DNA of 64,000 nucleotides. Origin: Prevotellaceae bacterium (GTDB lineage: Bacteria; Bacteroidota; Bacteroidia; Bacteroidales; Bacteroidaceae). The stretch's first letter is position 1, and each line of letters opens with the position of its first letter. The stretch is taken from positions 90,193 through 154,192 of the forward strand of contig JAQXTH010000034.1 in the NCBI GenBank assembly GCA_029219385.1. The letters run 5' to 3'. The notes beneath the pieces were generated by a model, which worked only from the letters and a program-made list of their open reading frames with translations, had not been told where the DNA came from and did not search any database. Positions 15,998 through 34,762 of this stretch are shown piece after piece. The position numbers and the translations under genes are program-made.

Positions 15998-16046
15998 ATA
16001 GCGTATGTTTAATTTCGTAGGAGGAAATCAAATCACAGTACACCTG

Positions 16047-16707: not shown

Positions 16708-16848
16708 TTGATTGTAATTTCTCAATGGACGATTGATAAATTAAGGAGTGGTAAGTGTGTGTTATGATAAGAGTGTTATTCTACGCGTTTCTAATTGTTC
16801 AATGTTCTTTGATTTATGTCAAACAGTGAGTTTAATTTGGATTCTATT

Positions 16849-17319
16849 TTATTCATTTTTAACTGTTTTTGTCAAATATCCTTTACCGTAACACCAATTA
16901 CATCTGCTCTTTATTTGTTGTGTTTCTCCGTCACCCATGTAAATTGTGCGATAATTGTAACCGCCATCGCAATGTTCACAAGTCACATTTTCTTTGTGAT
17001 AATCATTTACAGTGTTAGGTGTCACATAGGTTCCATCATAGGTCATAACTCCGGGCATTGGTGTAACCGGATTGGTTTGCAACCATTGATAGGCAGTAGC
17101 AGCTTGCTGTCTGTAATAATTTAAAACTTGCTGACGCATAATATTGTTTTTTATCTGCATCGAAGTTATTCGCTGGTCCATTTGAGCACACCATATAACA
17201 CCTCCGGGACTATAGTCATAGACATAATCAGGGACATAATACTGTGCATTAACTTTACTTGTCGAAGCAACAAATATAATTGCTAAACAAATTGTCTTAA
17301 ATAAAACAGAGGCCTTCAT
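16849..17319 (-). CDS. Secreted protein with DnaJ-like CxxCxG zinc motifs
   Basis: Signal peptide MKASVLFKTICLAIIFVASTSKVNAQ; CEHCDGG and CNWCYGKG. Confidence 0.6.
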   Translation of the reverse strand: MKASVLFKTICLAIIFVASTSKVNAQYYVPDYVYDYSPGGVIWCAQMDQRITSMQIKNNIMRQQVLNYYRQQAATAYQWLQTNPVTPMPGVMTYDGTYVTPNTVNDYHKENVTCEHCDGGYNYRTIYMGDGETQQIKSRCNWCYGKGYLTKTVKNE

Positions 17320-17450
17320 TGTTGATTACACTTATTTGTGTCGTGCGCAACCTTTAAATTGTTATTAAATGTTTTTTTGTCTGTTTATGTAACAAAAGCC
17401 TTTCAAGTAACCCCATAAAGAAAATATTTTTCACCTAAATATTAAAAGAG

Positions 17451-17487
17451 AAGGCTGTGCAGTAAAACTCAATTACGACACAGCCTT
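17451..17487. terminator. Hairpin terminator
   Basis: AAGGCTGTG-loop-CACAGCCTT. Confidence 0.55.
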
Positions 17488-17493
17488 TTCAAA

Positions 17494-17679
17494 TTAGTTA
17501 AATGTAGAAAAGTTGAGAATTAATCCTAAAATAAAGCCTCCTAATGCGGAATATAAATATGCAGAAGCATTTTCAACTTTGTCCTTATTAACAAAATAGC
17601 AAATAATTCCTATGATAGGAAATAAGAAGGAAAAAATCAGAGCAATAACACCGGCTCTTTCGGTTCTTTCATCTGTCAT
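17494..17679 (-). CDS. Small two-TM protein
   Basis: 61 aa with two hydrophobic stretches (VIALIFSFLFPIIGIICYFV; YLYSALGGFILGLIL). Confidence 0.45.
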   Translation of the reverse strand: MTDERTERAGVIALIFSFLFPIIGIICYFVNKDKVENASAYLYSALGGFILGLILNFSTFN

Positions 17680-17712
17680 AATAATAAATTTTAAAAATTA
17701 AACAATTAAGTG

Positions 17713-17913
17713 TTATTTGAATCGCACAGAATTAAGTAATTCGTTTACATATTCTGTAGACTTATCGATGTCGTAGAAAGAAGCAAGGAATACTTTTCCT
17801 GTTGGGCTAAAGAGTAAATAAAAGCGCCAATATACATACACACCATTTATATAGTGTTTTGAAATTTTATATAAACAATCATTTCCATTAATCTTAATTG
17901 TACCACTGTCCAC
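17713..17913 (-). CDS. Hypothetical protein, frame open further upstream without ATG (possibly 5'-truncated)
   Basis: Upstream in-frame reading IKNDSIGDCTICSDYDSDKSRLNFDNYWNNWKDNDKNILYTVNVDSGTIKINGNDC looks coding but has no in-frame ATG. Confidence 0.35.
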   Translation of the reverse strand: MDSGTIKINGNDCLYKISKHYINGVYVYWRFYLLFSPTGKVFLASFYDIDKSTEYVNELLNSVRFK

Positions 17914-18079
17914 ATTGACTGTATATAAGATATTTTTATCGTTATCTTTCCAATTGTTCCAATAATTATCAAAGTTTAAACGAGACTTGTCTGAATCATA
18001 ATCTGAACAGATTGTACAATCTCCTATACTGTCATTTTTAATAGTAAATATTTTTATAAACTATATTGTCAGAATAAAA

Positions 18080-18436
18080 TCATTTTGCCCTTTTCAAAGC
18101 ATATTCTGCTTTTCTCATGTAGTCTTGTGCGCGCTCACGGGCATTTTTTGCTTTTCGAGTATAATCTTCGGCTTTGTCTGTTGCATTCTTTGCACGTTGT
18201 TGATAGGTTTTTACATTATCATAATTTTTGCGTTTTGAATAGTATTCGGCTTCTCTTAGATAGCCTTGTGCTTGTCGATTGTAATAGTCTGCTTCGCGTT
18301 CGTATCCCAATGCTTGTTTTGTATAGTATTCTGCTTCACGTTGATAGGATTGTGCTTGCTTGATATAGTAGTCGTTTTGTGCCTTGAGAGGCAATAGGCA
18401 AAATAACGTGATTGTAAGAAAAAAGAGATGCTTCAT
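18080..18436 (-). CDS. Secreted protein built of ~14-aa tandem repeats (YYxKQAxGYxREAE)
   Basis: Signal peptide then YYIKQAQSYQREAE/YYTKQALGYEREAD/YYNRQAQGYLREAE/YYSKRK... and degenerate copies. Confidence 0.65.
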   Translation of the reverse strand: MKHLFFLTITLFCLLPLKAQNDYYIKQAQSYQREAEYYTKQALGYEREADYYNRQAQGYLREAEYYSKRKNYDNVKTYQQRAKNATDKAEDYTRKAKNARERAQDYMRKAEYALKRAK

Positions 18437-18464
18437 AGTTTAAATTTTGAGAGTAGCATTGTGT

Positions 18465-18989
18465 TTATACGTCAAAAAATAGTTTATATAGAAGTGATAA
18501 CAGATATAATACTAAAGGTAATACTAAAAGTAATACTAAAGGACCGGCTAAACCAATTAAAATGATTATAAGTTCTTTGTATTGAATATAGAATTTTTCT
18601 TTTTCATTTATGTTGAGCATTACTTTAGACCAATCAAAATTGCCGGTAATAGAGTCTATCCAATATGCAACAATTAGGTTGTATGATTTTTCAGAAACAG
18701 AAAAGACTTCTTCACCTCCGTCTTTTAGTTTTAGACATATAAACAACGATTCTTCACTGTCATAACTAATATCTTCGATTTCATTCCATCTGATTGAGCA
18801 ATATGATTTGTCCATAATATATGGTCGCGAACCAAAGTCGATTAGATTTTTGTCAACAAAAAATCCTTTACTAATTGTTGCACCCTTTTCAATAGGGAAG
18901 TATTTCCACCTCCTTACGTTTTTTATTAGTTTATCTTCAAGACGGGGTTCTCTTTTCATTGTTTTATACCCTTGATCTGTGTCGGGCAC
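18465..18989 (-). CDS. Hypothetical membrane protein
   Basis: C-terminal hydrophobic region LIIILIGLAGPLVLLLVLPLVLYLLSLLYKLFF. Confidence 0.5.
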   Translation of the reverse strand: MPDTDQGYKTMKREPRLEDKLIKNVRRWKYFPIEKGATISKGFFVDKNLIDFGSRPYIMDKSYCSIRWNEIEDISYDSEESLFICLKLKDGGEEVFSVSEKSYNLIVAYWIDSITGNFDWSKVMLNINEKEKFYIQYKELIIILIGLAGPLVLLLVLPLVLYLLSLLYKLFFDV

Positions 18990-19067
18990 AATCTTTAGTT
19001 TTTACTTGCTTTGTTTATCTATTTGTTTATGAATATTTGTTTGTGAAAGTAACTCTTTGGTATGATT

Positions 19068-19502
19068 TTATTCTTTAATAATTTCATATTCAGCACCAAA
19101 CCATTCGTTTAGAGTATTGTCAACTTTATAGTTGACGTCGGGAGTGATACGCTCTTTTATCTTTTTATAAACAAACAGCATGGCTGCACCCTCGTCAAGA
19201 ACACCAAGCACCTTGAACACAGCACTCGGAATGAGGCTCACGGAAGAGATGGTGTAGAGAATAGCAGTATAGACAAGAACGCGGTCGAGGGTGGGAGTTT
19301 TTTCGTCGGTCATAACATAGTAGAATTGCAGCAACGGCTTCGCTGCCACACGTCTCACTTTGATAGCATATGGTCTAATCCATTTCATTACTTCATCAGC
19401 CTTACGCTTCCAATCCACATCTCCAATTTTCTTCATTAGTTCTTTGATGTCCTTGCCCATGATGCAATAGGCAAGAATAGTGATACAAATAATTGTTGTC
19501 AT
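19068..19502 (-). CDS. YkvA/DUF1232-like membrane protein
   Basis: TPTLDRVLVYTAILYTISSVSLIPSAVFKVLGVLDEGAAMLFVYKKIKERITPDV is typical of DUF1232. Confidence 0.7.
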   Translation of the reverse strand: MTTIICITILAYCIMGKDIKELMKKIGDVDWKRKADEVMKWIRPYAIKVRRVAAKPLLQFYYVMTDEKTPTLDRVLVYTAILYTISSVSLIPSAVFKVLGVLDEGAAMLFVYKKIKERITPDVNYKVDNTLNEWFGAEYEIIKE

Positions 19503-19759
19503 AATATTAACGAAATCGGTTTCTGCTTATTTAGAGTGTGCACAGATGAATTTTATATCATAGATAGTCAGAAAATAATAACTTATTGGGTATTCTTTCA
19601 GATAATTGCCATGAGTGTTAATATAATGCCATAGCATGGTATCGCTTGTTTTTCACCGACCTTGCATTTGTCGCTTTCGAAAGTCCATATTCCATCATAT
19701 TTACAAGAAATCTTTTATGCCCCATAAACATTATAGAATCCCCATTTCCCATGCTTTAG

Positions 19760-20332
19760 TTATGTGTTTGAGAAATTGATTTTGCAAATGGCGTTTTTTA
19801 ATTGATGAAATTGGTTTTCTTCAAATTCAATGCTTGAAACTCCATCCATAAGTGCTTGACCACTTTTCACTCCGCCCATTCCTGCAACTTGAGTAGAAGC
19901 ACCTCCTACGAGAGCACACGCGCCTGCTAGTAAACCTCCAACAATACCCGTGACATCTTTTTTATTTCGTTCCCACCAAGACGAATTGAACTGTATGGTG
20001 TTTATATTTTTTTGCAACTGTCTAACGTTATTATAATCTCTTTGATACCAATAGCATATCATTTCACCCAAATACGCTAATAATTGCCTATTTCTACATT
20101 CTTCAGATGTTGCTTTATGAAATAACTCAATTGCATTAGGGAAATGGGCATAAATCTCATAATTAGGCATTCTACCTAACCTTTGAAATAAAACCAATGC
20201 TTTTTCAAATGATGCGTTTACAGTCACTCTAGAAGCATATTGCTTTTTAATAAGAGATAAATATCTATTTATGCCTTCATTCGGAAATGTTTTATCGAAA
20301 ATAAGGAATATGAATTGCTCTAAATCTTCCAT
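19760..20332 (-). CDS. Hypothetical protein with Gly-rich (glycine-zipper-like) hydrophobic segment
   Basis: DVTGIVGGLLAGACALVGGASTQVAGMGGVKSGQALMDG. Confidence 0.5.
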   Translation of the reverse strand: MEDLEQFIFLIFDKTFPNEGINRYLSLIKKQYASRVTVNASFEKALVLFQRLGRMPNYEIYAHFPNAIELFHKATSEECRNRQLLAYLGEMICYWYQRDYNNVRQLQKNINTIQFNSSWWERNKKDVTGIVGGLLAGACALVGGASTQVAGMGGVKSGQALMDGVSSIEFEENQFHQLKNAICKINFSNT

Positions 20333-20338
20333 ACAATT

Positions 20339-20767
20339 TTATTCTACATCTTGGGTGTAAATAGTTTGTCCCATTGCCGTTGAGAAATCCTGTTGAAGAA
20401 CCTCCATTACATGAGTATCTAATTTTGATTGTTTAATCATACCCCATATTTGTGCCAATAATACCGGCCATAGAACCAGCATTGTTATCATTGTTGGAAT
20501 TGCTTGCTGTGCAAAAATACCAACTCCGGTTTTAACGAGTACGTTAGGTGATGTCGAATGCATTTCTATTTTTAGCGCAGATTTCATTCCAAGAATAGCT
20601 TTGAACATCCCTCCTTTTTTTATAGTGATATTCCATTTTCCATCTGAGATTTTTTGAGCATTTATATCAAAACCTTCTTGTTGCATTTGTTCTGAGAATT
20701 GTTTTGCTACTTTATCAATATAGCTGTCACAATTATAAAATATTTTAGATGAACTAAATTTTCCCAT
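20339..20767 (-). CDS. Hypothetical membrane protein
   Basis: Start moved to MGKFSSSKIF because the upstream part of the ORF overlaps the hairpin at 20801-20843; TM segment IPTMITMLVLWPVLLAQIWGMI. Confidence 0.5.
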   Translation of the reverse strand: MGKFSSSKIFYNCDSYIDKVAKQFSEQMQQEGFDINAQKISDGKWNITIKKGGMFKAILGMKSALKIEMHSTSPNVLVKTGVGIFAQQAIPTMITMLVLWPVLLAQIWGMIKQSKLDTHVMEVLQQDFSTAMGQTIYTQDVE

Positions 20768-20800
20768 AATGATTTGATTAAAAAAATTATAATTGTAGAA

Positions 20801-20843
20801 ACAGACTCTTACCAAATGTATACTTACAATGGTAAGAGTCTGT
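20801..20843 (-). terminator. 14-bp perfect stem hairpin between small ORFs
   Basis: ACAGACTCTTACCA (20801-20814) / TGGTAAGAGTCTGT (20830-20843). Confidence 0.65.
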
Positions 20844-20850
20844 ATAGTAT

Positions 20851-21186
20851 TTATTTTATATTATAAATATTTCGTTTATTAACTTGACGTTTTAAGAACA
20901 TTGCGTTTCGTTTGGGATCATGAAGGAGCATACCATATGCTAAGATTATAGCGGGATCCTTCATTTTAAGTGTATCTCTAAGGAATTTAACGTCGATGCC
21001 TTCAATAGGTTCGAATTTTCGAATCTTATTTGTCTCCAACCATTCCTCAAGCATTGCATAGGCATCGGGATTTTCAATATTTTTAAGATTGAGAAGGTTT
21101 TCCACAGTATTATCTAAACCAAACTCGGGAATATATCCACAATCAATCAATCTTTGTCTCAAATTGTTTTTATCTATTGTTTTCAT
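20851..21186 (-). CDS. Hypothetical protein (111 aa)
   Basis: Intact ORF, 4 bp from its neighbour in a collinear operon. Confidence 0.45.
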   Translation of the reverse strand: MKTIDKNNLRQRLIDCGYIPEFGLDNTVENLLNLKNIENPDAYAMLEEWLETNKIRKFEPIEGIDVKFLRDTLKMKDPAIILAYGMLLHDPKRNAMFLKRQVNKRNIYNIK

Positions 21187-21190
21187 ATTT

Positions 21191-22108
21191 TTAAGCCATT
21201 AAATTAATTCCGTCATTAAACATTTGACTAGTAACATTTCTAACGACAGTGTTGCCTGCATAGTTAGAATCAATCTCAAGAGGGTTATATGAATACCCCC
21301 AAGGATCGAAACATGTGGGTTCATCATAATTATATATAGCAGTTGCCACAGCCCACTCATTTCTTACTTCGTCAGAAACATCATGATAACCATTTATACA
21401 TTCGCTTTGATATTGATGACGTAATTCGTGAGTAACAGTATCCAAAATTTGGAAAGGTGTTGTATATTCTCCAATAAGTTGTTCAGATATATGAATCACA
21501 CCATCACCATTATTTGAACCGAGAACGCCAGGTTCCATCTCTTCAATGCATACGCCTTTGTAATTCTCCAATTCAAATGCTTCAGCAACTTTTTCTGCAT
21601 ACATGCAAGCAATATCCTTTCTTTCTTCAGGACTCATATTGCCCCATTCGGCAATAACACCAGGATTGAAGATTTCCAAAGCTGCCTCAGAACATTTCTC
21701 TAATCCAAATTCGCGTCCTTCTGTAATGCCTTCATTTAATTTTGCAGTCTCTGGGAATTGAATATCAGATAAGGATTTCTTTTCATTGTGTGTAAAAAAA
21801 TCTTTAACGTTCTCGTACACACCACAGCAATAATCCTTTATTCCCTCTGACACTTTTGTGCCAAATTCAACAATCGTTTCTTTAGCATTTTCCATAGCAT
21901 TGTTAAACACTTCTTTACAGTCTTGAATTTTTTCATTGACCGCAGGGATATCAGAAATACGCTGTATTCCATACGCAATTGCTCCAGCTTGACCTCCTGT
22001 CATTGCTCTCATCTCTTTTGTGTTGTCAATAATTTCTTGACTAACATCTTGGTTTGTAGACTCAATATTATTATTGAGTTCTTCCATGTTTTGAAATTCG
22101 TAACCCAT
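21191..22108 (-). CDS. Putative zinc metallopeptidase-like protein (HExxH)
   Basis: TVTHELRHQYQSE (HELRH); 305 aa. Confidence 0.5.
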   Translation of the reverse strand: MGYEFQNMEELNNNIESTNQDVSQEIIDNTKEMRAMTGGQAGAIAYGIQRISDIPAVNEKIQDCKEVFNNAMENAKETIVEFGTKVSEGIKDYCCGVYENVKDFFTHNEKKSLSDIQFPETAKLNEGITEGREFGLEKCSEAALEIFNPGVIAEWGNMSPEERKDIACMYAEKVAEAFELENYKGVCIEEMEPGVLGSNNGDGVIHISEQLIGEYTTPFQILDTVTHELRHQYQSECINGYHDVSDEVRNEWAVATAIYNYDEPTCFDPWGYSYNPLEIDSNYAGNTVVRNVTSQMFNDGINLMA

Positions 22109-22133
22109 TTTAGTATGTTTTAAATAATAAGAT

Positions 22134-22703
22134 TCACTTCACTGTTACCAGCCCTTTTTCAAAAATTTCTCCATTATATGTCCAATAAGGTGCTTCAACT
22201 ATGCATTCCTGACCAGGTTGAACAGATGTTGGTTTGTAATATTTTTTAATGGATTGATTACTCCATGTGATTGTTTTCTCATTTTGAGAACGAATACCGC
22301 ATTTTAATAAAATATTCATTATCTCAGTTGCTTTGTCCTTATAGAGTACAATATCCCATGTATTTCTATCTTTTGAAAATATAGAAAACCACTTTTTTAG
22401 TTCTTCATTGTTGCGAGCCGCAATAATTTGCTCAAGATTATTAAAATTAATTTCAGCAATATATAATTCAGAGGAACCATTTATAATGTCACATAAACTA
22501 TTCATTGTTCCAGAAAAATGTTTTATATGTAATGAAAATAGTTCTACAATACTATTGTTTTGTGTTCCTGTTTGTGAAGTCTGTATGACTTTTTTCTTCC
22601 TTAATTTATCTTTTTTATAAAATTGTACTATACAGTACCCTATACCAATAACGAACAGTCCTCCCAAAACAGGCCAAATTGGATTAATTGAATTTGTTGA
22701 CAT
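22134..22703 (-). CDS. Membrane-anchored hypothetical protein
   Basis: N-terminal TM PIWPVLGGLFVIGIGYCIVQFY then cytoplasmic domain. Confidence 0.5.
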   Translation of the reverse strand: MSTNSINPIWPVLGGLFVIGIGYCIVQFYKKDKLRKKKVIQTSQTGTQNNSIVELFSLHIKHFSGTMNSLCDIINGSSELYIAEINFNNLEQIIAARNNEELKKWFSIFSKDRNTWDIVLYKDKATEIMNILLKCGIRSQNEKTITWSNQSIKKYYKPTSVQPGQECIVEAPYWTYNGEIFEKGLVTVK

Positions 22704-22714
22704 AATGACTATAT

Positions 22715-25450
22715 TTATAAGTTAATAATTGGTTTCGCAATTTTTACCCAGGATGCTGCATCATCCAAATCTCCTGCAATGATTGCATTACCTTGTTCCA
22801 ATGTTGGAATAATGCCTTTTTGGTCATCTCTCAATGCGAGAGATTGAGCCATTACAGCACAATCGTCAATAGCTGCCATTCTATGACAAATTTTGTAATT
22901 GGTATTTTTTATCACATCAGGAATTAACTTAGTTGGAACTTGGTCTATTATCATAAAGCCTTCGCCAAGCGACCTAATTTCAGATAGCATATTTGAAAAT
23001 AGGTCAGCTACAACTTGTTGAGGATTTCCTGAACCTTCTGCAGCAAGACTTGGCTTTGATAATACATTATGAGCTTCCTCTATAACCGTTAGGTGCATTA
23101 GTTCATTAGCCTGTGCCATTTTCCTATATTGTTCATCATACGAATATGCAGATGTGCGATATTCATACAATGAAAGTAGAATCATTGACATGATTAAAGC
23201 CTTATCTTTGGCATTAGGTATTTTACTTAAATTGATAACACAATTCTGATTGAATAGTTTTGTATATGAAGTTGAAATATATTCATTTAATATTTTACCT
23301 CGTTTGCCTCTTGTTAAATACTTGAATCTGGTTTCAAGAGCTGCTACAAAACTATCTGTGACACGTTGCTCATATCCTCTATTTTGCAGTATACGTTTCG
23401 CTACACCCAAAGCTCCTTCCAACAATGGATATTTAGGCAACTGATCCATTTCTTCCTCTTCAAAATCATCTACCTTCTCCTTCAAATAAGCATATAATGC
23501 TTCATCCATGATAACAGGAAGAATATCTCCTGTTGGCAATGTCGCATTAATCAATGCTGTAATCTTTTCACACCGGGTTTGCATATCTATAGGAGCTCCA
23601 TCAATTGCTGCCGGTTGGAAAGGGTTTAGACGAAGGTTTGACAACATTGTTCCCTCAAACATTGATAATCCCGGCTCGAAGATTGTTATTCTTCGTTTTG
23701 CTTTCTCATTCTCAGGAAGATTTAATTTATCAATTTCTTGATTTTGTTTAATTGCCCAGCGTACCCATTCATCCTTGGCAGGTTCAATAATCAACACCGG
23801 TTTCTGTTTCTCAAGAACAGCATTTATAAGTGTCTTGCAAGTTGTAGTTTTTCCACATCCTGTAGAACCAACTATTAATGCGTGCCTAACAAGAGAATTG
23901 ACCGAGATGGTATAAGGATTATTTTGTACGATTCCTGTATCTACAATATTTCCTATTTTTACAAGTTCCTCGTTTGTATGATTTTTACCAGGGTTATTTG
24001 CAAAGCGTACGGCATTTTTCACAAAACGGATTCCTGGCACATCCTTACGTGGCAAAGATGTAAAAAGCGATAATTCCTCGGTATTTACAGGAGTACTAAC
24101 ATATTGATATGCTTTACCAAACATATGCCACTCATCTTCATCTTTAACAAATTCATTTGCATCTGGATTTAAGATGGGTATTAAGTTAAAATTCTTTATT
24201 GTATCTAAAGCAGATTTAGAATTGAATATATGTGTACGTATTGGTTCAACTCTTGTGTAATCTCCAGAGTAAACCGAACGTAATGTTCCAGTTATTAAAT
24301 CTACATTGTCAAGCGTGTCAGCTAAAATGTAAACACCTGCATTCCAAAAACCGATATCACGACCGGAACGCAATCTTTCACAATGTTTGTCTGTAAGCAT
24401 TTCAGAATATTGAGCAAACTTATTTAAATAGTCTTTAGCTACAGATTGGCTATAAGAAACACTATTACTTGTGGATAAACTTCTACTAAATCCAATATTC
24501 CCTTGTATGCCTAACGCTCGCATGAATACACTGATTGTGTTTTTTGCAGCTAATGCCGCAGGATTGGCGGATAATAATGCACCTGTAACAAGATTGGTTA
24601 AAGGGCCTAAATTACCTTGTCCTAATCCAAATCCAAAACCTCCGTTCATACCAGTATAACTACCTTCAGAGTAGGAGTGACTGCTACTTTCAGTAACATG
24701 ACGTGTGACTTCAGAATGTATATCACTACCTAATTGTTGATATTTTGCTATTATATCGGTTATTTGACTATCTGTTAAAGGATCTGCGATTACAATTAGT
24801 GAGTAATTTGCATTAATACCATTAGTATTTTTAAAACCAAATGCTAATTTGTCTAATGTTTGGAGCACTCCAAATTGAGTCCCTTTACGAAAAGAGGGAA
24901 TACCTGTAATTGCACCACAACAAGCAGAATATGAAATTTGTTTATTTATGGATTTAATATCTTTTCTGGAAACATCATCGCCAAGAGATAATTCTTTCAA
25001 ATCAATTCCAGGCATAGAACCGACCAATGCACATTTGCATTTTTTTAATTGTTCAGATATATTATTACCCTTTACTCCAAGATACAAATGTGTTTCTCCG
25101 TTACGTCTTTGCAAAAGGAATATCAATTTTTGTTTCCAAGCATGCAAAGAGGATAATACTCCTTGCCATCTTGATAATAAATCATAGTCGTCTATACGTA
25201 ACGGAGACACAGGTAACCGTTCTATACGAATCCAACCAATTTCTTCATATTCTGGCAATTCTATAATATTAAAATCCGTTCTTTGTGATACATCTTCTAA
25301 ATAAGAACGTTCTAACATATAGTCCATTAGTGGATTTGCTAAATCTACCGGTAATTCATAAATTGGTTTTTGCTTTTGCTTTAAGTTATCAATACTATCT
25401 TGAACATTAAAACAGTCTTTTCCAAAAAATCTTTTTAAGAATCTACTCAT
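22715..25450 (-). CDS. HerA/FtsK-superfamily (DUF87-like) ATPase, 911 aa
   Basis: Walker A ALIVGSTGCGKTTTCKTLI; Walker B LTVIEEAHNVLSK; EPAKDEW and SMILLSLYEYR context. Confidence 0.8.
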   Translation of the reverse strand: MSRFLKRFFGKDCFNVQDSIDNLKQKQKPIYELPVDLANPLMDYMLERSYLEDVSQRTDFNIIELPEYEEIGWIRIERLPVSPLRIDDYDLLSRWQGVLSSLHAWKQKLIFLLQRRNGETHLYLGVKGNNISEQLKKCKCALVGSMPGIDLKELSLGDDVSRKDIKSINKQISYSACCGAITGIPSFRKGTQFGVLQTLDKLAFGFKNTNGINANYSLIVIADPLTDSQITDIIAKYQQLGSDIHSEVTRHVTESSSHSYSEGSYTGMNGGFGFGLGQGNLGPLTNLVTGALLSANPAALAAKNTISVFMRALGIQGNIGFSRSLSTSNSVSYSQSVAKDYLNKFAQYSEMLTDKHCERLRSGRDIGFWNAGVYILADTLDNVDLITGTLRSVYSGDYTRVEPIRTHIFNSKSALDTIKNFNLIPILNPDANEFVKDEDEWHMFGKAYQYVSTPVNTEELSLFTSLPRKDVPGIRFVKNAVRFANNPGKNHTNEELVKIGNIVDTGIVQNNPYTISVNSLVRHALIVGSTGCGKTTTCKTLINAVLEKQKPVLIIEPAKDEWVRWAIKQNQEIDKLNLPENEKAKRRITIFEPGLSMFEGTMLSNLRLNPFQPAAIDGAPIDMQTRCEKITALINATLPTGDILPVIMDEALYAYLKEKVDDFEEEEMDQLPKYPLLEGALGVAKRILQNRGYEQRVTDSFVAALETRFKYLTRGKRGKILNEYISTSYTKLFNQNCVINLSKIPNAKDKALIMSMILLSLYEYRTSAYSYDEQYRKMAQANELMHLTVIEEAHNVLSKPSLAAEGSGNPQQVVADLFSNMLSEIRSLGEGFMIIDQVPTKLIPDVIKNTNYKICHRMAAIDDCAVMAQSLALRDDQKGIIPTLEQGNAIIAGDLDDAASWVKIAKPIINL

Positions 25451-25455
25451 ATTAA

Positions 25456-27153
25456 TTAATTTTTAAATGATACGACTTTTCGTGGATGATAAAAACCATC
25501 TTGACCTATAAAAATAACTTCACCACTAATGTTGATAGGTTTACCATCGTCTATTATAATTTTGCTCGTAGACGTTACGTCATATTTATTACCACCGAAG
25601 AAGAATTCTATTAATCCTAAATTTAAGCTTATATCTATTTTGTCAAATATATCTTTATTTAAAATTTCTCCTGTAAAAACCTTAAAGTATCCCCGGAAAT
25701 CATTATTAAGTTTTACTTGATAATCTGTTTGGATTAAACCAAGATTTACTGATACCTCTTTTTCACATGGAAGCACCATTCCTTGTGTTACGACCTCAAT
25801 AACTTCGCTTTCCTTATCATTAATTACTAATTGCATCCATATATTGTTTGCAGCAGAAGGACAGATTTCAATTGTGTCATCAATATAACATAATCCATTA
25901 GCGACACTTTCCTGTGGTTTAGGATCTAAAAAGCGTTCGATTCGATATGGTTCTTTTATTAATTTTTCAAATTTTACGTTGCTGACACTATTATTATTAT
26001 CATCATCTTTTATTTTCCCAATAGAACCAAAAACGCCTTCCCCATTGAATAGTTTTTGAACAGTATACCATTTACTGTGACCACCTGTTAAACACAGCAA
26101 ATCTATATCTTTTGCACCAATCCCATATAATGATTGGTATTTTTTAATTGCCGAACAAATCAGCCCATATAGATTGCGCCAATGTTGTTGCGTAAGAGAT
26201 TCAAATACTGCGCGGTCAAAATAGAATGATTTATTAACATCGTGACCTCCTGATTTACATCTAAGTAATTTAACAAAATCATCAGGAAGGTTTGATTTGT
26301 TGTCTAATTTTAGAGCGTTAGACATAAAGCCATCTTTCCATTTTTTAGCAGAGAGTTCTTCGAAATCACCTTCTTCTAAAATTACGTTATATTTTCTGCA
26401 ATATTGATGAACATAATCGTAGAGTAGTTGATCTATTTCTCTACCACCATTTAAACAAGGATTGTCAACAGGTGGATATGGAAGCATATGATCAAGTGTA
26501 TATTCACCATCATTTTTTACTAAAAATCTGAAGATAGTAATGTCACTCGTTCCTGCTCCCATATCAAGCATGAAAACATGTAAAGGTTTATCAACCTGCA
26601 ACAGTTTGCTCTCAACAAGACTACGTTTATGGTTGTGCAACATATTAAACATTGCAGCATTTGGCTCGTTTTGTCTAATTGGTTCATTTAGAGGCCTAAA
26701 TCCCGCTTCTTTAATAATATCCGCCATTGCATCGTTCATACTATGCTTCCATTTTGCAGGAAAACTAAATGCTAACTCATAGGGCTCATATTCAAGATCA
26801 GGTATTTGATTCTTTACTAATTTATAGATGTGTTCTTTAAAAAATTTTAGTATTAAATCCTCCGCTTGCTTTCTTTCTGGTGAATTTTTAGGCTGAAGCA
26901 AATCCATTTTAAAATTTATAAATAGTTGTCCTTGCGGTTCTTCTTGATTAAAAACAAAAGCGTGGTCGTTTATATATGCACTGATAGCCTCATGACCGTA
27001 TGCATAATATCCATTAGCACTTTTATAAACAGCAGTAGGGATAATTTTATTCCCATTACTGTCTATTATCTCTTTTGTTTCGTTATCACCATCATTACAA
27101 TACCGTACAACAGTAGTACTTGTACCAAAATCTATTCCGATTCTTCTTGCCAT
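25456..27153 (-). CDS. Hsp70/DnaK-like (actin-fold) ATPase
   Basis: RIGIDFGTSTTVVRY phosphate-1; VFMLDMGAGTSDITIFRF phosphate-2; LLCLTGGHSKW adenosine motif. Confidence 0.82.
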   Translation of the reverse strand: MARRIGIDFGTSTTVVRYCNDGDNETKEIIDSNGNKIIPTAVYKSANGYYAYGHEAISAYINDHAFVFNQEEPQGQLFINFKMDLLQPKNSPERKQAEDLILKFFKEHIYKLVKNQIPDLEYEPYELAFSFPAKWKHSMNDAMADIIKEAGFRPLNEPIRQNEPNAAMFNMLHNHKRSLVESKLLQVDKPLHVFMLDMGAGTSDITIFRFLVKNDGEYTLDHMLPYPPVDNPCLNGGREIDQLLYDYVHQYCRKYNVILEEGDFEELSAKKWKDGFMSNALKLDNKSNLPDDFVKLLRCKSGGHDVNKSFYFDRAVFESLTQQHWRNLYGLICSAIKKYQSLYGIGAKDIDLLCLTGGHSKWYTVQKLFNGEGVFGSIGKIKDDDNNNSVSNVKFEKLIKEPYRIERFLDPKPQESVANGLCYIDDTIEICPSAANNIWMQLVINDKESEVIEVVTQGMVLPCEKEVSVNLGLIQTDYQVKLNNDFRGYFKVFTGEILNKDIFDKIDISLNLGLIEFFFGGNKYDVTSTSKIIIDDGKPINISGEVIFIGQDGFYHPRKVVSFKN

Positions 27154-27197
27154 AATTTTAATTTATTTTATTTTATGTTATTTTACAATAATATATC

Positions 27198-28097
27198 CTA
27201 CATATATGTTACATTAATATTACATTCTTCATCAAAACTTGCACTAATAACTTTATTGTTAGGTTCTATTTTTGTTGACTTAAGTATTCCATCTTTATAC
27301 AGGATCATAATATCAGTCCCCTTTGCTTTTATATAAAGAGCCTCTTTGTTTTGCTCAAATATAAATTTTTGTTGCATAATTCGATCGCTCATTATTCTAG
27401 GTTTTCCATGTGAGTCAATATAAATATATCCATCGTCTGTTACAGCAAATGATATGACATCTTTATATAGCATCTGTTTTCCTGTGAATATAGTTTTAAC
27501 ATTCAGTGATGAAAAGAAATTACCTTCTTCAGAAACTAAATTCAAATCATATAGATTATTTTGTAGGTGTGTAGGCATAAATTCTATAAATAAATTTTCA
27601 ACCTCTGTCACATAAGTAAAATCTGTAGCGTATAGGGTAATGCTATCCTTTGTTCCAATTGTTATTATGGCAGGTTTATTGGAAATTCCATATACTTCTA
27701 TCTTATGGTAACGAAGATTTATATTATCAAATGTTTCATTGGTATATGACGGCAAATCCAATCTTGTGCCAGCCTGAACTCTAATAATTGGGTTTGATAA
27801 ATTAGGAATACTTTCATGCTCTTCTATCTCCTCATTTCTAATAGGACGATCTATAAGTACCTCCAAAGCGTGAATCCCATTTTGGATTATTGATTCTTCA
27901 GCATCTTTATCTTCATTAATCCAGGTGACAATATTATGATATGCATTTAGAAGTTCATTATTCCAATAATAAACTTTAGATGGATGCATATCACGGATAA
28001 ATTGTCTTCTATTTTCCCAGAATTCATTGTAATCAAAATGTTTGGCAAAATCAGGAAGAGTTACTATCAGGTTATTCTTTAGTTTCATTTTCCTCAA
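27198..28097 (-). CDS. Hypothetical protein, C-terminal beta-repeat-like region
   Basis: Intact 299-aa ORF in the operon; repeated DGYIYIDSHG / DIMILYKDGILKS beta-like motifs. Confidence 0.5.
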   Translation of the reverse strand: MRKMKLKNNLIVTLPDFAKHFDYNEFWENRRQFIRDMHPSKVYYWNNELLNAYHNIVTWINEDKDAEESIIQNGIHALEVLIDRPIRNEEIEEHESIPNLSNPIIRVQAGTRLDLPSYTNETFDNINLRYHKIEVYGISNKPAIITIGTKDSITLYATDFTYVTEVENLFIEFMPTHLQNNLYDLNLVSEEGNFFSSLNVKTIFTGKQMLYKDVISFAVTDDGYIYIDSHGKPRIMSDRIMQQKFIFEQNKEALYIKAKGTDIMILYKDGILKSTKIEPNNKVISASFDEECNINVTYM

Positions 28098-28100
28098 ATC

Positions 28101-30077
28101 TTAAACAGTTCGTAATTCTTTTGAATAATGATTTATCGCACCTACAATTGTATAATATAGAACCTTGTCATATTCGTTCTCCCATCTTTTTGCAGAGTTC
28201 GGATCATGAATGTACAAGCGTTTATCTGTATCATAGCAATCAAAATCTAGGATACAATTACCTCCTGCTGGAACAAATTCATTTTCATGAAGCTTCAAAA
28301 AACACTTTACAATGTCTTTGAGGTTAGTCTCTCCATAGGGTTTATAATTTCCTTCCTTAAAAATATTTCTCACCGCGTTCCCCATATTGGTTTCATTGTA
28401 GATGATAGTGCTATTATTATCCTTTGGTTCCGGGTAAATACGGAATTTAGCCTCCTTTATCAACGCAGAAATATCAGCACCTGTCATTAATTTATGTTTC
28501 GGTTTAGAAGATGAACTCCACATATATATAGGCGACTTTTCATTACCATGTTCATCCTTTATCCCCTCGTTGATATTTTTCAAAATACAAGCAGCAGTAT
28601 CTGAAGTACAACACTCATTTATAATCTTAAGCCAAAACGACTCTTCTTCCAATGCTGTAGCAAACAACTGTTTAGCTTGCTTATGTCGAAATCTAACAGG
28701 CATATTCTCGATTTCTGCATAATACGCTTTATTTTGTGCTTTTATGTTTGCTGCAAAGATTTTTGCACATTCTATTGCAGTTGGCATAAAAGTGAAGAAT
28801 TTTCTATCAAAGCGTTCGGAGCGGAACAGCTCTGGGGGTAGGCAGCTTATATCATTTGATGTAGCAAAAACAAAACATGCGGCTGATTTCTCTTGCATCC
28901 ATGTTAAAAATTTACCAAACATTCGGCGACCAACACCGCCATCACTCGATGACGCTCCTTGGGATGAACCAGAAAAAGCCTTTTCTATCTCATCTATCCA
29001 TAGTACACATGGAGCCATCTGCTCTGCCATAGCAAGGGCATTAATCATATTGTGTTCGGATTCTCCCATTATTCCTCCTAATAGTGCTCCCATATCAAGT
29101 GATATCAACGGCATATTTAATATTGTAGATGCAGTTTTAGCCATTAACGATTTACCAGACCCCGGAATACCTGAAATAAGCACACCATTAGGAATATCCA
29201 TGTGTTGTCTCCTCGCTAATTCAGGATCTTCAAATATTGCTTTTCTTGCATATAGCCACCTTGTAATATTATCTAATCCAGCCACTCCTGATATGGTTGA
29301 TTTTTCCCATTTTAACCCTTGACTATTATCCAACATCTGTTTTTTTGCAGAACGGATAATATTCAAGACTTCGCTAGCATTTACATATTCGAATTCTATG
29401 TATTGTTCAGCAATCATCAAACTCAAAAGTTGGAGAATTTTGTTGCGACTAAATCCTCTGAAACTTATGATCATTTGACTTAATAGATGAGAACTTATTA
29501 CCTCTGTAGGTATATTCTCAACCATCAATTTATTTAATGTTATGGCCTCTATTTCTTCGTCACTAAGAGCAGGCACTCTGACTATCTGAACATAAGGAGC
29601 AAACATATCTGGGATTACTTCTTCTTTAGGAGATACCACAATGTATAACGATCGTTTAACTGCATCTGTAATACCAGGGTTGGTTTGATTCTCCGATTTT
29701 TTAATGCCCAAATACAGCGAAATATAGTTCTTAACATTATTGGATACACTATTCCAATCACTGATATATGACACAATGATAGATGGAATTTTTATGTTAT
29801 CAGAATTTCCTCCTATCTTGTAGTTATCAACAATACTTTTGAATGTACCATTAGTATTGTCAATTTCAGCAATTTCATTAACCTCAAGTTTAGTTATCTC
29901 ATTATTTCTTGAGCATACACGAGGTACTAAAGAATCTATACAATCATTCCCATAGAGAAGTTCTTGTATTATTTCCAATTGATCTGTTGGAATATATACT
30001 ATCGGAGTATGAGCAAGCATTGCTCTTTTTACATCTTCAAGCATACGACCCAATTGTGTTTTATTAAACTCCATCAT
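28101..30077 (-). CDS. Classical AAA+ ATPase (Ycf46/FtsH/spastin-like core)
   Basis: NGVLISGIPGSGKSLMAKTAS Walker A; APCVLWIDEIEKAFSG Walker B; FVFATSND sensor 1; PPELFRSERFDRKF arginine-finger region. Confidence 0.88.
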   Translation of the reverse strand: MMEFNKTQLGRMLEDVKRAMLAHTPIVYIPTDQLEIIQELLYGNDCIDSLVPRVCSRNNEITKLEVNEIAEIDNTNGTFKSIVDNYKIGGNSDNIKIPSIIVSYISDWNSVSNNVKNYISLYLGIKKSENQTNPGITDAVKRSLYIVVSPKEEVIPDMFAPYVQIVRVPALSDEEIEAITLNKLMVENIPTEVISSHLLSQMIISFRGFSRNKILQLLSLMIAEQYIEFEYVNASEVLNIIRSAKKQMLDNSQGLKWEKSTISGVAGLDNITRWLYARKAIFEDPELARRQHMDIPNGVLISGIPGSGKSLMAKTASTILNMPLISLDMGALLGGIMGESEHNMINALAMAEQMAPCVLWIDEIEKAFSGSSQGASSSDGGVGRRMFGKFLTWMQEKSAACFVFATSNDISCLPPELFRSERFDRKFFTFMPTAIECAKIFAANIKAQNKAYYAEIENMPVRFRHKQAKQLFATALEEESFWLKIINECCTSDTAACILKNINEGIKDEHGNEKSPIYMWSSSSKPKHKLMTGADISALIKEAKFRIYPEPKDNNSTIIYNETNMGNAVRNIFKEGNYKPYGETNLKDIVKCFLKLHENEFVPAGGNCILDFDCYDTDKRLYIHDPNSAKRWENEYDKVLYYTIVGAINHYSKELRTV

Positions 30078-30086
30078 TGCATTATA

Positions 30087-30506
30087 TTATTTTTCAATAA
30101 TCTCAATATCTTCTTTATTCTCTTCTTCATCAATGCTTGATTCTTTAGAATTGAGTTTTTCCAGAACCTTTTCTAACATTTCTTTGTCAGATTCTGTTAC
30201 AGTTTGAGGTGCTTTGTGTTGCTCTATTTCCATATACCTCATAGCAATAGCAGGTTCACGGCGAATCCAATCCAACATAAGAATAGCTCTTATCGGTTTC
30301 ATTTTATCATTATTGATAAGTTCCTCCAAAGAAATATCGTGATATTCCACATATGGAATCTTTCCTTCAATAACATCCAAAACTGCAAGTTTCAATTCGT
30401 TTGGCAACTGTCGAATTTTCTGTATTGTTCTACAAGCATTGATCGGATTAGCATCCTCTTCTGTTACTAAATAATTGAACAACTGTATATATTTAATAAT
30501 TTTCAT
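30087..30506 (-). CDS. Hypothetical protein (139 aa)
   Basis: Intact collinear ORF with Glu-rich tail. Confidence 0.45.
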   Translation of the reverse strand: MKIIKYIQLFNYLVTEEDANPINACRTIQKIRQLPNELKLAVLDVIEGKIPYVEYHDISLEELINNDKMKPIRAILMLDWIRREPAIAMRYMEIEQHKAPQTVTESDKEMLEKVLEKLNSKESSIDEEENKEDIEIIEK

Positions 30507-30521
30507 ATATTCTATTATTTA

Positions 30522-31217
30522 TTATATAACTTCAAATTGTCTTTCTCCCTTGAGTATCGTTTCAAATCCAAAAGCATCGAATTCAACAGGTTGTTTTCGA
30601 TACAACTCATCACTCACACAAGTCGGGATGTAATGGTTGAAATTTTCTGCCCAGATTTTTATCTGTTCGTCCGAATAGCCATAGTCTTTTATACCATTAA
30701 GTTTTCCCTCTACTGCTGCCCATTGGCGAGCATGCTTTAACTCATGGAATATTGTATAAACTTGTTCTTCTATCAATTTTGGCTCTCCGGATAAAATAAA
30801 TGCTACATTGATATGAAGTGATCTGTCAGAATGGCTATAATAACCGCAATAGCCACAAGTTGGTGGTTCATCCGTTGAATAAAAATCAACCGTTCCAACA
30901 TTTACATCCATTAATTGTTGAGCATCTTCTACCATTCTTTCAAAAAGACTTAACAACTCTTCCTTTGACATATTTTGAGTACGTTCGTTTATGCCATTTG
31001 GAAAAACTTGATATAAATACTCTTTACATCTTAATGCCATTTCCACATCTGGTTTCTCTGGACGATATTCTGCGTCCATCTTTTCCAATTGCTCTATATA
31101 CCCACTGTTTTGTTGGATATATTCTCTCTTTTCTCTCCAAAATCTAATTCTTCCAAATACATATTGAAGAGCATACGAGACTCCGGCAATTAACAATGCT
31201 ATACCAATTTCTATCAT
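30522..31217 (-). CDS. Putative membrane-anchored HExxH metallopeptidase-like protein
   Basis: N-terminal TM IEIGIALLIAGVSYALQYVFG; YTIFHELKHARQWAAVEG. Confidence 0.55.
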   Translation of the reverse strand: MIEIGIALLIAGVSYALQYVFGRIRFWREKREYIQQNSGYIEQLEKMDAEYRPEKPDVEMALRCKEYLYQVFPNGINERTQNMSKEELLSLFERMVEDAQQLMDVNVGTVDFYSTDEPPTCGYCGYYSHSDRSLHINVAFILSGEPKLIEEQVYTIFHELKHARQWAAVEGKLNGIKDYGYSDEQIKIWAENFNHYIPTCVSDELYRKQPVEFDAFGFETILKGERQFEVI

Positions 31218-31231
31218 AGTAAATATAAATT

Positions 31232-31290
31232 AATAGCCACAACACTCCTTAAAATGTGCATATATAACTTCTAAGGGTGTTGTGGCTATT
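31232..31290 (-). terminator. Long hairpin within the operon (terminator/attenuator-like)
   Basis: AATAGCCACAACAC...GTGTTGTGGCTATT; followed on the minus strand by an AT-rich TTAATTTATATTT tract. Confidence 0.65.
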
Positions 31291-31313
31291 CATAATAATT
31301 GCATTATTAAAGA

Positions 31314-32723
31314 TTACATTGTTGATACTATTACATTATCATCATTCTGTTGCACCTCAACTATTGACTTTTTTTGAAAAAGCGAAACAAACCAATCCTT
31401 GATACCTCGCAGTACCACAAATATGCTTGGCCATACAGTTTCTCTCCATGTGTCAACAACAACATCAAAAATTCGAGAAGACCAGTTTATGATTTTTTCT
31501 CCAGCATTGAATGCACTATTAGTCAAGGACCAAACGACAAACAAAGAAGCAAGGAAAGCACCAATTGTTGCAATAGTTGTAGAACCAAAAGCTACCATAA
31601 ACATCACCATAGATAGTGTACCAATGGCTGTGATGCAATTAAAAGCTACATATGCGAGTAACGAGAATAATGCGATACCTCCAATAATCTTCAGAACCTT
31701 GATGGCTTTATCTACAGTTGTTCGTCCAGAATTCAAGTCATTCATGACATGCATTTCTTCAATTCCTGCTGCAACGGAAATAGCAATTGCTTCCGGAGTC
31801 AACTCCTGTCCTCTGAGCGATTCTAATTCTTCATTCTGATATGCAATGTAGGTTGCCATTGATGTAATCATCTTTTCTCGCATATCCTGTTCGGAATTAA
31901 TTACAACACTTTCAACCGCTTCAGAACCGTTCGGCAATTCATCAATTAGTTCCTTAAGGCTTTCAAGAGACCCCAGACAGAAATTATTGTTCTTAAGCAA
32001 TTGACCAATTTTGTCTTCTACATCGCATAGCATTTCCTCTGTAACTTCATCTTTAACAATCAATCTTTGACGAATTGTTTGAAAATTCTCTATCTGGGAA
32101 GCTTGCTCTGTAGAGAGATTGCCAACGCTTAGAGTTTGTAATGCCGCAAGGAAGTTGATATAAAGTTCATACTTCTCATTAATTGGCATTTCTGAAGCTA
32201 ACTCTTTCAACTCGGTTGCGTAATCAAATTCTCCATTTTCCAATGCTTTCTTCAAATTAGCATTGAATGAAACAATGCCAGATTCCAAACCATTGGTGAT
32301 AGCATGTGCATCTTCAAGAAGTGCTCCTGGTCGCTGAGATAGATAAAACGTCACCAAATTCTCTTTTAGAGACAATTCTGAATTGTAAGACTCATTAAAA
32401 TTCACTACAAGATCCTGAACTTTCAAGATTTCTTCTTTAGATAATTTGTTTTCCATTGTTGAATTTTTTAAAATTAAACTGTTGTTGTTTGTTTCTTTTG
32501 AGTCATTATATAGTGATGTTCTATCTTTTGTAGTAATACTTTTTTCGTCTATTCCTAACAAATCATCAGCATAGTCTTTGTTAATTGAATGGTTTAATAT
32601 ACTTGCTTGAAGCGAAACATTAATTTCACCATCTTTAATTAATGTCTTTTCAATTTCAATCATCTTTGCCTGTGGAAGATCATTATTCACAAAACGACAA
32701 AATGTAATATCATCTACTCCCAT
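31314..32723 (-). CDS. Membrane protein with N-terminal anti-sigma-like extension (internal start possible at 32456)
   Basis: First ~60 aa resemble the sigma-adjacent protein at 4725-5198; main domain starts MENKLSKEE; C-terminal TM block IGGIALFSLLAYVAFNCITAIGTLSMVMFMVAFGSTTIATIGAFLASLFVVW. Confidence 0.6.
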   Translation of the reverse strand: MGVDDITFCRFVNNDLPQAKMIEIEKTLIKDGEINVSLQASILNHSINKDYADDLLGIDEKSITTKDRTSLYNDSKETNNNSLILKNSTMENKLSKEEILKVQDLVVNFNESYNSELSLKENLVTFYLSQRPGALLEDAHAITNGLESGIVSFNANLKKALENGEFDYATELKELASEMPINEKYELYINFLAALQTLSVGNLSTEQASQIENFQTIRQRLIVKDEVTEEMLCDVEDKIGQLLKNNNFCLGSLESLKELIDELPNGSEAVESVVINSEQDMREKMITSMATYIAYQNEELESLRGQELTPEAIAISVAAGIEEMHVMNDLNSGRTTVDKAIKVLKIIGGIALFSLLAYVAFNCITAIGTLSMVMFMVAFGSTTIATIGAFLASLFVVWSLTNSAFNAGEKIINWSSRIFDVVVDTWRETVWPSIFVVLRGIKDWFVSLFQKKSIVEVQQNDDNVIVSTM

Positions 32724-32729
32724 AATTAT

Positions 32730-33431
32730 TTAAAACTCATTTTTTATTGATCTAAAATTATCTTGCAAATGCTTTAGTGCATATCCTTTTAAGAGAGACA
32801 AAGCATCTTGACGTTGTTTGTTTGTCCATGATTGTTTGACTTCATCAGATGTCAGTCCGTCTTTTGGTCTTGGGTGTATATATTGTTCCAACAGAGGAAA
32901 TGCATCTAATGCAGGCATCTTTTCTATAACTAAGTAGTGTAAAACTAAACGATAGCGTTCTGATAACATTTGATATGCTTTTCTAACACATTTCGTTTGC
33001 ATATCATCTTCTTCGTCGAATGCAGACTCACATCTAATAAGAGACTCATAATCTACATATTCTAGCAATTCTCCGTCTTTTTCTAGTTTTCGTTTTTCTT
33101 TATTTGACAATTTGCAAAAATACCTACAAGTAATATTTGAAGTATAAGTACTTAATAAACAATTGATACCTTTGTATAAATCAACGCGATGCCATAAAGG
33201 CTTTTCTGCTTGTTTATCGTATGGAAAACTTAAAAACATATAATATTCGGCTGTTATATCGCGATGCATTATTGAATATTCTATATGCTTCATTATGGGC
33301 ATCCCTATCTCTGTTAAATAATAAAACACGGCCTTAGTATCATTAGAAACAACCATTTTTGCCAATTCTTTATTGGCATAATAATCAGTGTCATTATTAA
33401 GCCGCTTTTTGAAATCATTCCAGTCTGTCAT
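32730..33431 (-). CDS. Divergent sigma-70-like regulatory protein
   Basis: CVRKAYQMLSERYRLVLHYLVIEKMPALDAFPLLEQYI resembles a sigma region 4 context; operon-leading position followed by an anti-sigma-like ORF. Confidence 0.45.
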   Translation of the reverse strand: MTDWNDFKKRLNNDTDYYANKELAKMVVSNDTKAVFYYLTEIGMPIMKHIEYSIMHRDITAEYYMFLSFPYDKQAEKPLWHRVDLYKGINCLLSTYTSNITCRYFCKLSNKEKRKLEKDGELLEYVDYESLIRCESAFDEEDDMQTKCVRKAYQMLSERYRLVLHYLVIEKMPALDAFPLLEQYIHPRPKDGLTSDEVKQSWTNKQRQDALSLLKGYALKHLQDNFRSIKNEF

Positions 33432-33448
33432 AAATAACTATATTAATA

Positions 33449-33877
33449 TTATCGAATCCTTCTTATATATTTCCACACACTTTTAAACACTTTACTTGCA
33501 TTCTTACCGCCTCTTATTCTTGTACCCGATGAAGCTGAAGAAGGTATATACTTCCAGGTTCCAATACATTGATTTCCCCAATAAAGAGATACTGTGTCCC
33601 CGAATGTGAAGTTAATTCCATTTGCTTTGCCTATGGTTATATATTTTCCATATTCCCATACAAAAGGAAAAGCATACATATCGGTTCCATTAATCACAAG
33701 AGAGATATTTTGAAGATTTTGTCCCCAACCATTATACACATAAGAATTTTTACATGCAAAATAGGGTTCTTTATCAACCCAAGCGTCAGGATCTGCATGA
33801 TAGAACCCCCCATAGAACTGAGCACTTACACTAAGAGTTGTAAATGCAAAAACTAATGTAATTACTAAATTCTTCAT
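33449..33877 (-). CDS. Small secreted basic-tailed protein
   Basis: Signal peptide MKNLVITLVFAFTTLSVSAQ (start taken here rather than at 33934); C-terminus SKVFKSVWKYIRRIR. Confidence 0.5.
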   Translation of the reverse strand: MKNLVITLVFAFTTLSVSAQFYGGFYHADPDAWVDKEPYFACKNSYVYNGWGQNLQNISLVINGTDMYAFPFVWEYGKYITIGKANGINFTFGDTVSLYWGNQCIGTWKYIPSSASSGTRIRGGKNASKVFKSVWKYIRRIR

Positions 33878-34282
33878 TTTCTTATATTTTTTATATTGGA
33901 ATGCGCGATTATTCGATAATTCTGTGCTTGCCATATTTTCTGTTTTAAACTCCTGATTGTGGGAAGAAAAACTATAACATTATGAGTTACAATATAGTTG
34001 TATATTTTTCTTTCTAGTCCAAAGGTTGTTATGGGTGCATATCAACAAAGTGTGTCAAAAGAAGTGTTTTTTGATTTATGACTCTTTCTTTTATGTGATA
34101 CACTATTGGTGGATACCCTTGTATATAAGTTTCCAACCTGTGAGGTATTAATTTCAGGGAGGACGCAGGAGGTAAGTCCTACATTGGGAGGGGATTGCTT
34201 TCTACCTCCATTGAATTTTATATCTGATGTGGTGCAATACATATTTATATCGTGATGGCATCTTGTTAGAATATAAAACACA

Positions 34283-34748
34283 AAAAAGCGTGGAGACCTC
34301 TTGTTGTTTATTCTTCCTGTTCCGGCTCTAGCAAATGCCAATCATAGTAGAACAAACAACGTTGGTGTCCACGCCGATATGATATACCTACCGTTAAGAG
34401 ACCTCGGTAAACAACAATTTGTGCTTGCTTGTACGATAAAACAACAAACATGCAACGTATGCTTACAAGGTCTCCACGGGGTTGATGCTATCACACCCGG
34501 GACATCTACCGCTGACTTGGTCTGAGAAACTATGATCCTAAATGAACTTGCTAGATTCGAACAGGAACCCCAAACACCGCGTCGGTAAACGCCTTCAATA
34601 TGTCTTTTGACTACCTCTTCCCACCTAATACCCGCTTTGTGTAGATTATCTGTGAATTTGTTGTAATTGTTATTACCGAAGCACTACACTTGGCACGGCG
34701 TGGACCTGTTGCATATCTGCTATTGAAGCAATAACAACAATGGTAATC
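34283..34748 (-). ncRNA. Candidate ~465-nt structured non-coding RNA
   Basis: Minus-strand -7 TATCTTTG at 34755-34762. Long-range pairs: GGGGTT/AACCCC (34566-34571 with 34478-34483), GAGACC/GGTCTC, and a terminal GCGTGGAcACC/GGTcTCCACGC hairpin followed by TTTTTT (34288-34375). No plausible conserved ORF. Confidence 0.6.
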
Positions 34749-34754
34749 TGTGAG

Positions 34755-34762
34755 CAAAGATA
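34755..34762 (-). promoter_or_regulatory. -7 element TATCTTTG of the ncRNA candidate
   Basis: Exact TAnnTTTG on the minus strand. Confidence 0.6.

Follow-up and report, generated by a model that had tools for sequence, protein, structure and literature searches.

In Bacteroides fragilis, UpxY relieves termination within the leader that precedes upxY, according to a passage in PMC7819879 that cites Chatzidaki-Livanis 2009. In the LoaP system, a specialised NusG protein together with a leader RNA hairpin can take polymerase past a leader terminator (PMC12691694). Here we analyse a stretch of 64,000 nucleotides (nt) from a Prevotellaceae bacterium (contig JAQXTH010000034.1, positions 90,193 to 154,192 of the forward strand; the whole stretch is called the window below), which encodes on its minus strand a structured RNA of about 470 nt that the original prediction had taken for an independent noncoding RNA (ncRNA). 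On comparative sequence evidence, we consider it probable that this RNA is one copy of a new Bacteroidales family of long 5′ leaders that act by transcription attenuation, in which a long-range helix, P0, would be the antiterminator and two helices of the 3′ domain, P1 and P3, the terminator. Coupling of the family to UpxY-type antiterminators appears to be partial, not exclusive. With the UpxY capsule leaders of B. fragilis the family shares its Bacteroidales hosts, a long leader, and predicted premature termination above a UpxY gene that heads a long operon.

Helices of the leader and their conservation

The elements of the window copy are as follows, with the basis of each in parentheses; R1 is a covariance model of the 3′ domain.

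34755..34762, minus strand: -7 promoter element TATCTTTG, matching TANNTTTG (sequence and promoter count in homologues)
34282..34754, minus strand: leader RNA, about 470 nt (sequence and homologues; R1 gives 87.9 bits for 34281-34382)
34696..34705, minus strand: P0 5′ strand GTCCACGCCG (RNAalifold consensus, pair counts, covariation across subfamilies)
34585..34593, minus strand: conserved GGCGTTTAC, 5′ strand of helix PA (RNAalifold consensus, pair counts)
34501..34509, minus strand: conserved GTAGATGTC, 3′ strand of helix PA (RNAalifold consensus, pair counts)
34492..34497, minus strand: GGTGTG, 5′ strand of helix P4 (RNAalifold consensus, pair counts)
34376..34381, minus strand: CATATC, 3′ strand of helix P4, nearly invariant (3′-domain model, pair counts)
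34367..34376, minus strand: P0 3′ strand CGGCGTGGAC, overlapping the P1 5′ strand (RNAalifold, pair counts, covariation across subfamilies)
34368..34374, minus strand: P1 5′ strand GCGTGGA (3′-domain alignment, 21-copy comparison)
34350..34360, minus strand: P3 5′ strand GTTGTTTGTTC (3′-domain alignment, pair counts, 21-copy comparison)
34303..34313, minus strand: P3 3′ strand GAATAAACAAC (3′-domain alignment, pair counts, 21-copy comparison)
34282..34294, minus strand: P1 3′ strand TCCACGC, then T6, the terminator end (sequence, alignment, 21-copy comparison)

In P1, GCGTGGA (34374-34368) pairs with TCCACGC (34294-34288), and the T6 of the terminator follows at 34287-34282. Taken whole, the 473-nt RNA folds better than 100 of 100 dinucleotide shuffles (z = -4.9).

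The case for the terminator rests on 53 aligned 3′ domains. Here P1 (GCGTGG/CCACGC) is paired in 99.7% of cells and the 11-bp P3 (GTTGTCTGTTC/GAACGGACAAC) in 99.8%, the latter with double changes; P2, which crosses P3, is paired in 77%, and slid controls of the whole structure score far lower. A local hairpin, H (GTGGAAC/GTTCCAC), shares strands with both P1 and P3 and is formed in 95%. One of its pairs exchanges A-U for G-C (Fisher p = 1e-16, a value that ignores relatedness), and the P3 partner of that pair never varies. The covariation controls likewise take no account of the tree. P1 and P3 persist in every one of 21 copies compared, 19 of which lie beyond the reach of the search pattern described below; in several of the 21, including the window copy, H is weak or missing. 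That copy keeps P0, P1 and P3 through compensating changes: a GTGGGC to GTGGAC change is matched in the P0 partner strand (GTCCACGCCG) as well as in that of P1 (TCCACGC), and P3 has compensated changes of its own. It has lost H and UpxY.

Further helices emerge from an RNAalifold consensus of 68 longer sequences: P0 (CYACGCCG with CGGCGTGG), PA (GGCGUUUAC/GUAGAUGUC), a GAC/GUC helix and P4 (GRURUG/CAUAUC). In a set chosen for having the 5′ motif, P0 is paired in 96.6% of cells, with double changes at its periphery only. We regard as stronger evidence for this helix the divergent copies in which P0 is remade from a different sequence (CCGAAAGTCCCG/TGGGGCTTTCGG, CCAGCTAGCCC/GGGCTAGCTGG and CGCAGAAAGCCT/GGGCTTTCTGCG). 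By shuffling, P0-like pairing reaches p <= 0.01 in 79 of the 108 leaders of the pattern set and in 10 of the 20 found by the model, several of the misses being leaders whose 5′ segment our script cut too short. P0 occupies the strand that P1 needs or, in some subfamilies, that P2 needs. As in an attenuator, conserved and mutually exclusive helices include the terminator (P0/P1, P1/H and P3/H), and an intrinsic terminator stands between the promoter and a co-oriented first gene. The median energy gap between folds with P0 enforced and with P1 enforced is 2.2 kcal/mol, usually in favour of P1, and would be compatible with a switch.

Much of what the original prediction saw at this locus is borne out. 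The promoter element is present, and 106 of 118 homologues have its counterpart TANNTTTG in the corresponding position, where shuffles would give 16; no convincing open reading frame (ORF) was found across the leader (about 470 nt, within 34282-34762, minus strand); and ARAGORN detected neither a tRNA nor a tmRNA at the RNA. Rfam 15 gave no family over its gathering cut-off at the RNA, whether in the window, in a close-up or at 28 homologous loci, and relaxed thresholds brought only chance matches, so it is not a catalogued Rfam family. Homologues were found, as the prediction had proposed to look for, and they show covariation. The complementarities that had been named all exist, and the P1 and P3 pairings exceed chance, as the counts above indicate; together with P0, these two are the most important. 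Others require qualification. Only half of P0 (34705-34696 with 34376-34367) had been recognised; the helix TTGTTGTTATT/AATAACAA is present but lies in a part that varies among homologues; and CGTGGAGACC/GGTCTC is there but is common to only some relatives. The mid-leader CGTGGAGACC (34478-34469) is also perfectly complementary to the terminator 3′ arm GGTCTCCACG (34298-34289), and this pairing is possibly an extra antiterminator specific to the window copy.

A widespread family and its downstream genes

A DNA search found fragments in related genomes and, in the window's genome, two further copies (C38 and C58; 67% identical). A pattern drawn from the conserved 3′ part, ATATCNGCGTGGNNNCNNNNGTTGNNNGTTC, occurs in at least 120 stretches of GTDB genomes, nearly all of them, among the matches listed, labelled Bacteroidales. 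The exact pattern has no match in IMG/VR, and blastn against phage and plasmid records found none, which speaks against a phage or plasmid RNA of the GOLLD/ROOL kind. With R1, the family is seen in 287 of 400 sampled Bacteroidaceae genomes (about 70%; E <= 1e-3) and in 29 of 247 genomes sampled across the order (E <= 1e-6), other Bacteroidales families included; it is found in 0 of 198 genomes sampled across the phylum Bacteroidota, the window's own genome set aside. These genome counts come from loose first looks; copy numbers are therefore lower bounds, and some weak matches may be false. Cultivated carriers include Segatella copri, Xylanibacter, Leyella stercorea and Bacteroides stercorirosoris. 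Several copies per genome are frequent, the window's genome having at least five (the clear ones are C34, C38, C58, C20 and C35). Nineteen copies found by R1 lie outside the pattern's reach; 18 of these have GCGTTT (1.7 expected) and 18 have an upstream TANNTTTG (3.4 expected), neither of which is included in the model. No description of this RNA was found in the open-licence papers searched. The family is thus apparently an uncatalogued, widespread structured RNA of gut Bacteroidales, present in some 70% of sampled Bacteroidaceae genomes yet absent from Rfam.

A few copies have unusual settings. Three records that carry the RNA are labelled Clostridium, Dechloromonas and Parabacteroides (L013, L106 and L093), the first two of which are likely mixed assemblies. 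In G401, a single-contig genome, two leaders (L169; 2873015 and 2880473) lie 7.5 kb apart, each heading similar secreted-protein genes, which suggests that leader and gene were duplicated together; near a leader copy of this genome is an abiF RNA (RF03085; L171 589-625, minus strand).

Leaders in the homologues have a median length of 430 nt. The RNA is best read as a 5′ leader belonging to the operon that follows and not as an independent ncRNA, because 99 of the 105 loci with enough sequence have a next gene in the same orientation and the median gap from the T-run to that gene is 47 nt; the co-oriented run reaches the end of the fetched piece in most loci. Of the original proposal, then, the structured RNA, its separate promoter and its terminator stand, and the RNA is conserved, but the stand-alone reading is revised, because the next gene is co-oriented and near and the alternative helices surround the terminator. 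The transcript of some 465 nt that the prediction proposed to look for would not separate the two, as a terminated leader would likewise give one of about 470 nt.

Gene calls at these loci are mechanical. Of 116 loci, 65 have a first ORF from one UpxY-like cluster; two representatives of the cluster pass the cut-off of NCBIfam NF033644 (UpxY family antiterminators) and combine NusG and KOW domains with an N-terminal extension of 45-70 residues. Other first or early genes encode LytTR, protein kinase, FHA, sigma-like factor, DA1-like, Hsp70, tubulin-like, VWA, caspase and PP2C proteins and Cys-Xaa-Xaa-Xaa repeat peptides. Some loci are polysaccharide-like, as judged from the starts of translated genes only. 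The repeat peptide genes lie below leaders at five loci (L008, L075, L118, L060 and L177; TIGR04117 in two), some with a radical SAM-like neighbour gene, and are likely operons for ribosomally synthesised and post-translationally modified peptides (RiPPs).

Below the leader in the window lie two features.

33943..34248, minus strand: UpxY (NusG-type antiterminator) pseudogene (tblastn with homologous UpxY proteins, whole-genome search)
14939..33934, minus strand: about 20 co-oriented genes (gene calls, domain searches)

Of about 244 residues, the pseudogene retains about 1-104, interrupted by one in-frame TGA, the rest being gone; its N-terminal extension is open over the first 66 codons (34045-34242). 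Another locus likewise has the N-terminal UpxY extension only (L026 4341-4541), and such retention may be plain decay or may reflect a role of its own. No other UpxY was found in the window's genome (87.6% complete), only the housekeeping NusG. G401 has seven good leader copies, and its sole UpxY-like gene is split into two adjacent pieces (L174; G401:1350078-1350580). Because the RNA persists in both genomes where UpxY has been lost, it cannot serve UpxY alone.

The run at 14939-33934 is likely one transcription unit and the operon under control. It encodes an AAA ATPase, an Hsp70-like protein, a HerA/FtsK-type ATPase, a radical SAM/SPASM protein and many proteins without assignment. Compared with the proteins of other RNA-headed loci, these show no homology except a weak AAA protein match, so operon content varies among copies of the RNA. 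Elsewhere in the window, a second cluster (701-5817, minus strand) encodes a sigma-like factor, a putative anti-sigma factor, FHA, caspase and PP2C proteins; R1 found no leader above it, and its relatives sit in RNA-led operons at six loci (L012, L078, L090, L025, L058 and L056). A strong hairpin with a T-run at 34905-34957, just below an alkaline phosphatase gene (34989-36686), is probably an ordinary terminator.

A proposed switch and its rivals

In the mechanism that we propose, transcription would begin at the TANNTTTG promoter, and the nascent leader would fold into a multi-helix domain of P0, PA, the GAC/GUC helix and P4. At the 3′ end, P1, directly before the T-run, and P3 would form the terminator, with P2 crossing P3 as a pseudoknot. 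The 5′ element CYACGCCGA would pair with UCGGCGUGG at the start of the 3′ domain, or further along in some subfamilies, to make P0, excluding P1, P2 or both; the operon would be transcribed only if P0 wins, and H would be a third competing form. The conserved core between the P0 strands could then receive the signal, in the form of a bound protein, a modified elongation complex or a ligand. Where UpxY is the first gene, it would likely be the helper that takes polymerase past the terminator; at loci without it, as in the window's genome and G401, another input would have to serve. We infer this polarity because P1 and P3 are more constant than H.

Several observations weigh against this scheme. 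A clear P0 is not seen in several homologues, and in some subfamilies it covers P2 instead of P1. Most pairs of the core between the P0 strands covary little because that core is so conserved. UpxY is absent from some RNA-rich genomes, so that the link to it is not general. Further, R1 E-values are rough, and matches below about 40 bits may be false. Finally, folding with P0 enforced produces H in some copies, and because H also abuts the T-run, P0 may lead to H and to a stop.

This last point leads to the opposite polarity, which we think rather unlikely. By default, P0 would free CCACGC and H would terminate, and the P1/P2/P3 pseudoknot, taking both arms of H, would be the antiterminator. 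H has the form of a standard local intrinsic terminator, it is conserved and covarying, its GAAC is sequestered by P3, and, as noted, it appears in some P0-forced folds. However, in the window copy, L177, L186 and L183 it is very weak or missing, whereas P1 with P3, which also ends at the T-run, is kept in every one of the 21 copies compared.

It is less probable still that the leader is a recruitment site for UpxY only, in the manner of ops for RfaH, its RNA structure being merely a pause and a terminator. The UpxY-like first genes at 65 of 116 loci would fit such a site, as would the prevention of premature leader termination upstream of upxY by UpxY proteins in B. fragilis (the passage in PMC7819879 citing Chatzidaki-Livanis 2009). 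But G401 combines its seven good copies with a split UpxY only, G000 has five copies and no UpxY, and in Bacteroides genomes such as G279 and G257 R1 does not match at the majority of UpxY loci. We set this explanation aside on account of the genomes that have the RNA without an intact UpxY.

An independent ncRNA gene, trans-acting in a 6S-like or regulatory fashion and merely located upstream of operons, would account for the separate promoter and terminator, for a conserved core larger than that of most leaders and for the multiple copies per genome. Gene orientation (99 of 105, with the 47-nt median gap) and the centring of the alternative helices on the terminator make this very unlikely, and the former led us to set it aside. 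Leader-peptide attenuation, in which ribosome stalling on a short leader ORF would set the fold, is a known kind of attenuator, and long 5′ untranslated regions with possible small ORFs are reported in Bacteroides thetaiotaomicron (PMC7366714), but it is highly improbable here, as no conserved ORF stood out on inspection of the leader alignment and the conserved motifs are at the RNA level.

A bolder extension of the attenuation model, which we offer tentatively and judge doubtful, is that the family is a new and very large class of signal-sensing Bacteroidales leader RNA whose P0/P1 switch, built around a pseudoknotted terminator, co-ordinates a regulon of long operons independently of UpxY, possibly sensing a small molecule or the state of the cell. 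With the same reserve, that regulon could take in the FHA, kinase, phosphatase, caspase, tubulin-like, sigma, RiPP and surface-polysaccharide genes. Apart from this extension, the family itself would provide gut Bacteroidales with a common RNA control point for their long signalling and surface operons, which are poorly understood, and would suggest that UpxY-type antiterminators are part of a larger RNA-based system. How these long operons are switched on becomes a directly testable question.

Comparison with described systems

The likeness to the UpxY capsule leaders of B. fragilis has its bounds. R1 is absent at most Bacteroides UpxY loci, many of the operons with R1 are not capsule loci, and several of them lack UpxY. 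The elements described here may overlap with leader features of the detailed 2024 UpxY study (Saba 2024). The LoaP-dependent dfn/mln leader of Bacillus velezensis (PMC12691694) offers the same combination of a specialised NusG, a structured leader, an intrinsic terminator and a long operon. Yet dfn needs a small UNCG hairpin, whereas in the new family a multi-helix RNA of about 400 nt combines a pseudoknotted terminator with a long-range competitor helix. The EAR/epsC RNA (RF01735) and JUMPstart/ops with RfaH (RF01707) are also leader RNA or DNA elements that pass polymerase through long, often polysaccharide, operons; the new RNA matches neither model, and its core CGGTAG resembles ops only loosely. 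Finally, the family resembles terminator-platform riboswitches in that a closing helix would compete with the expression platform, but its downstream genes have no common metabolic theme.
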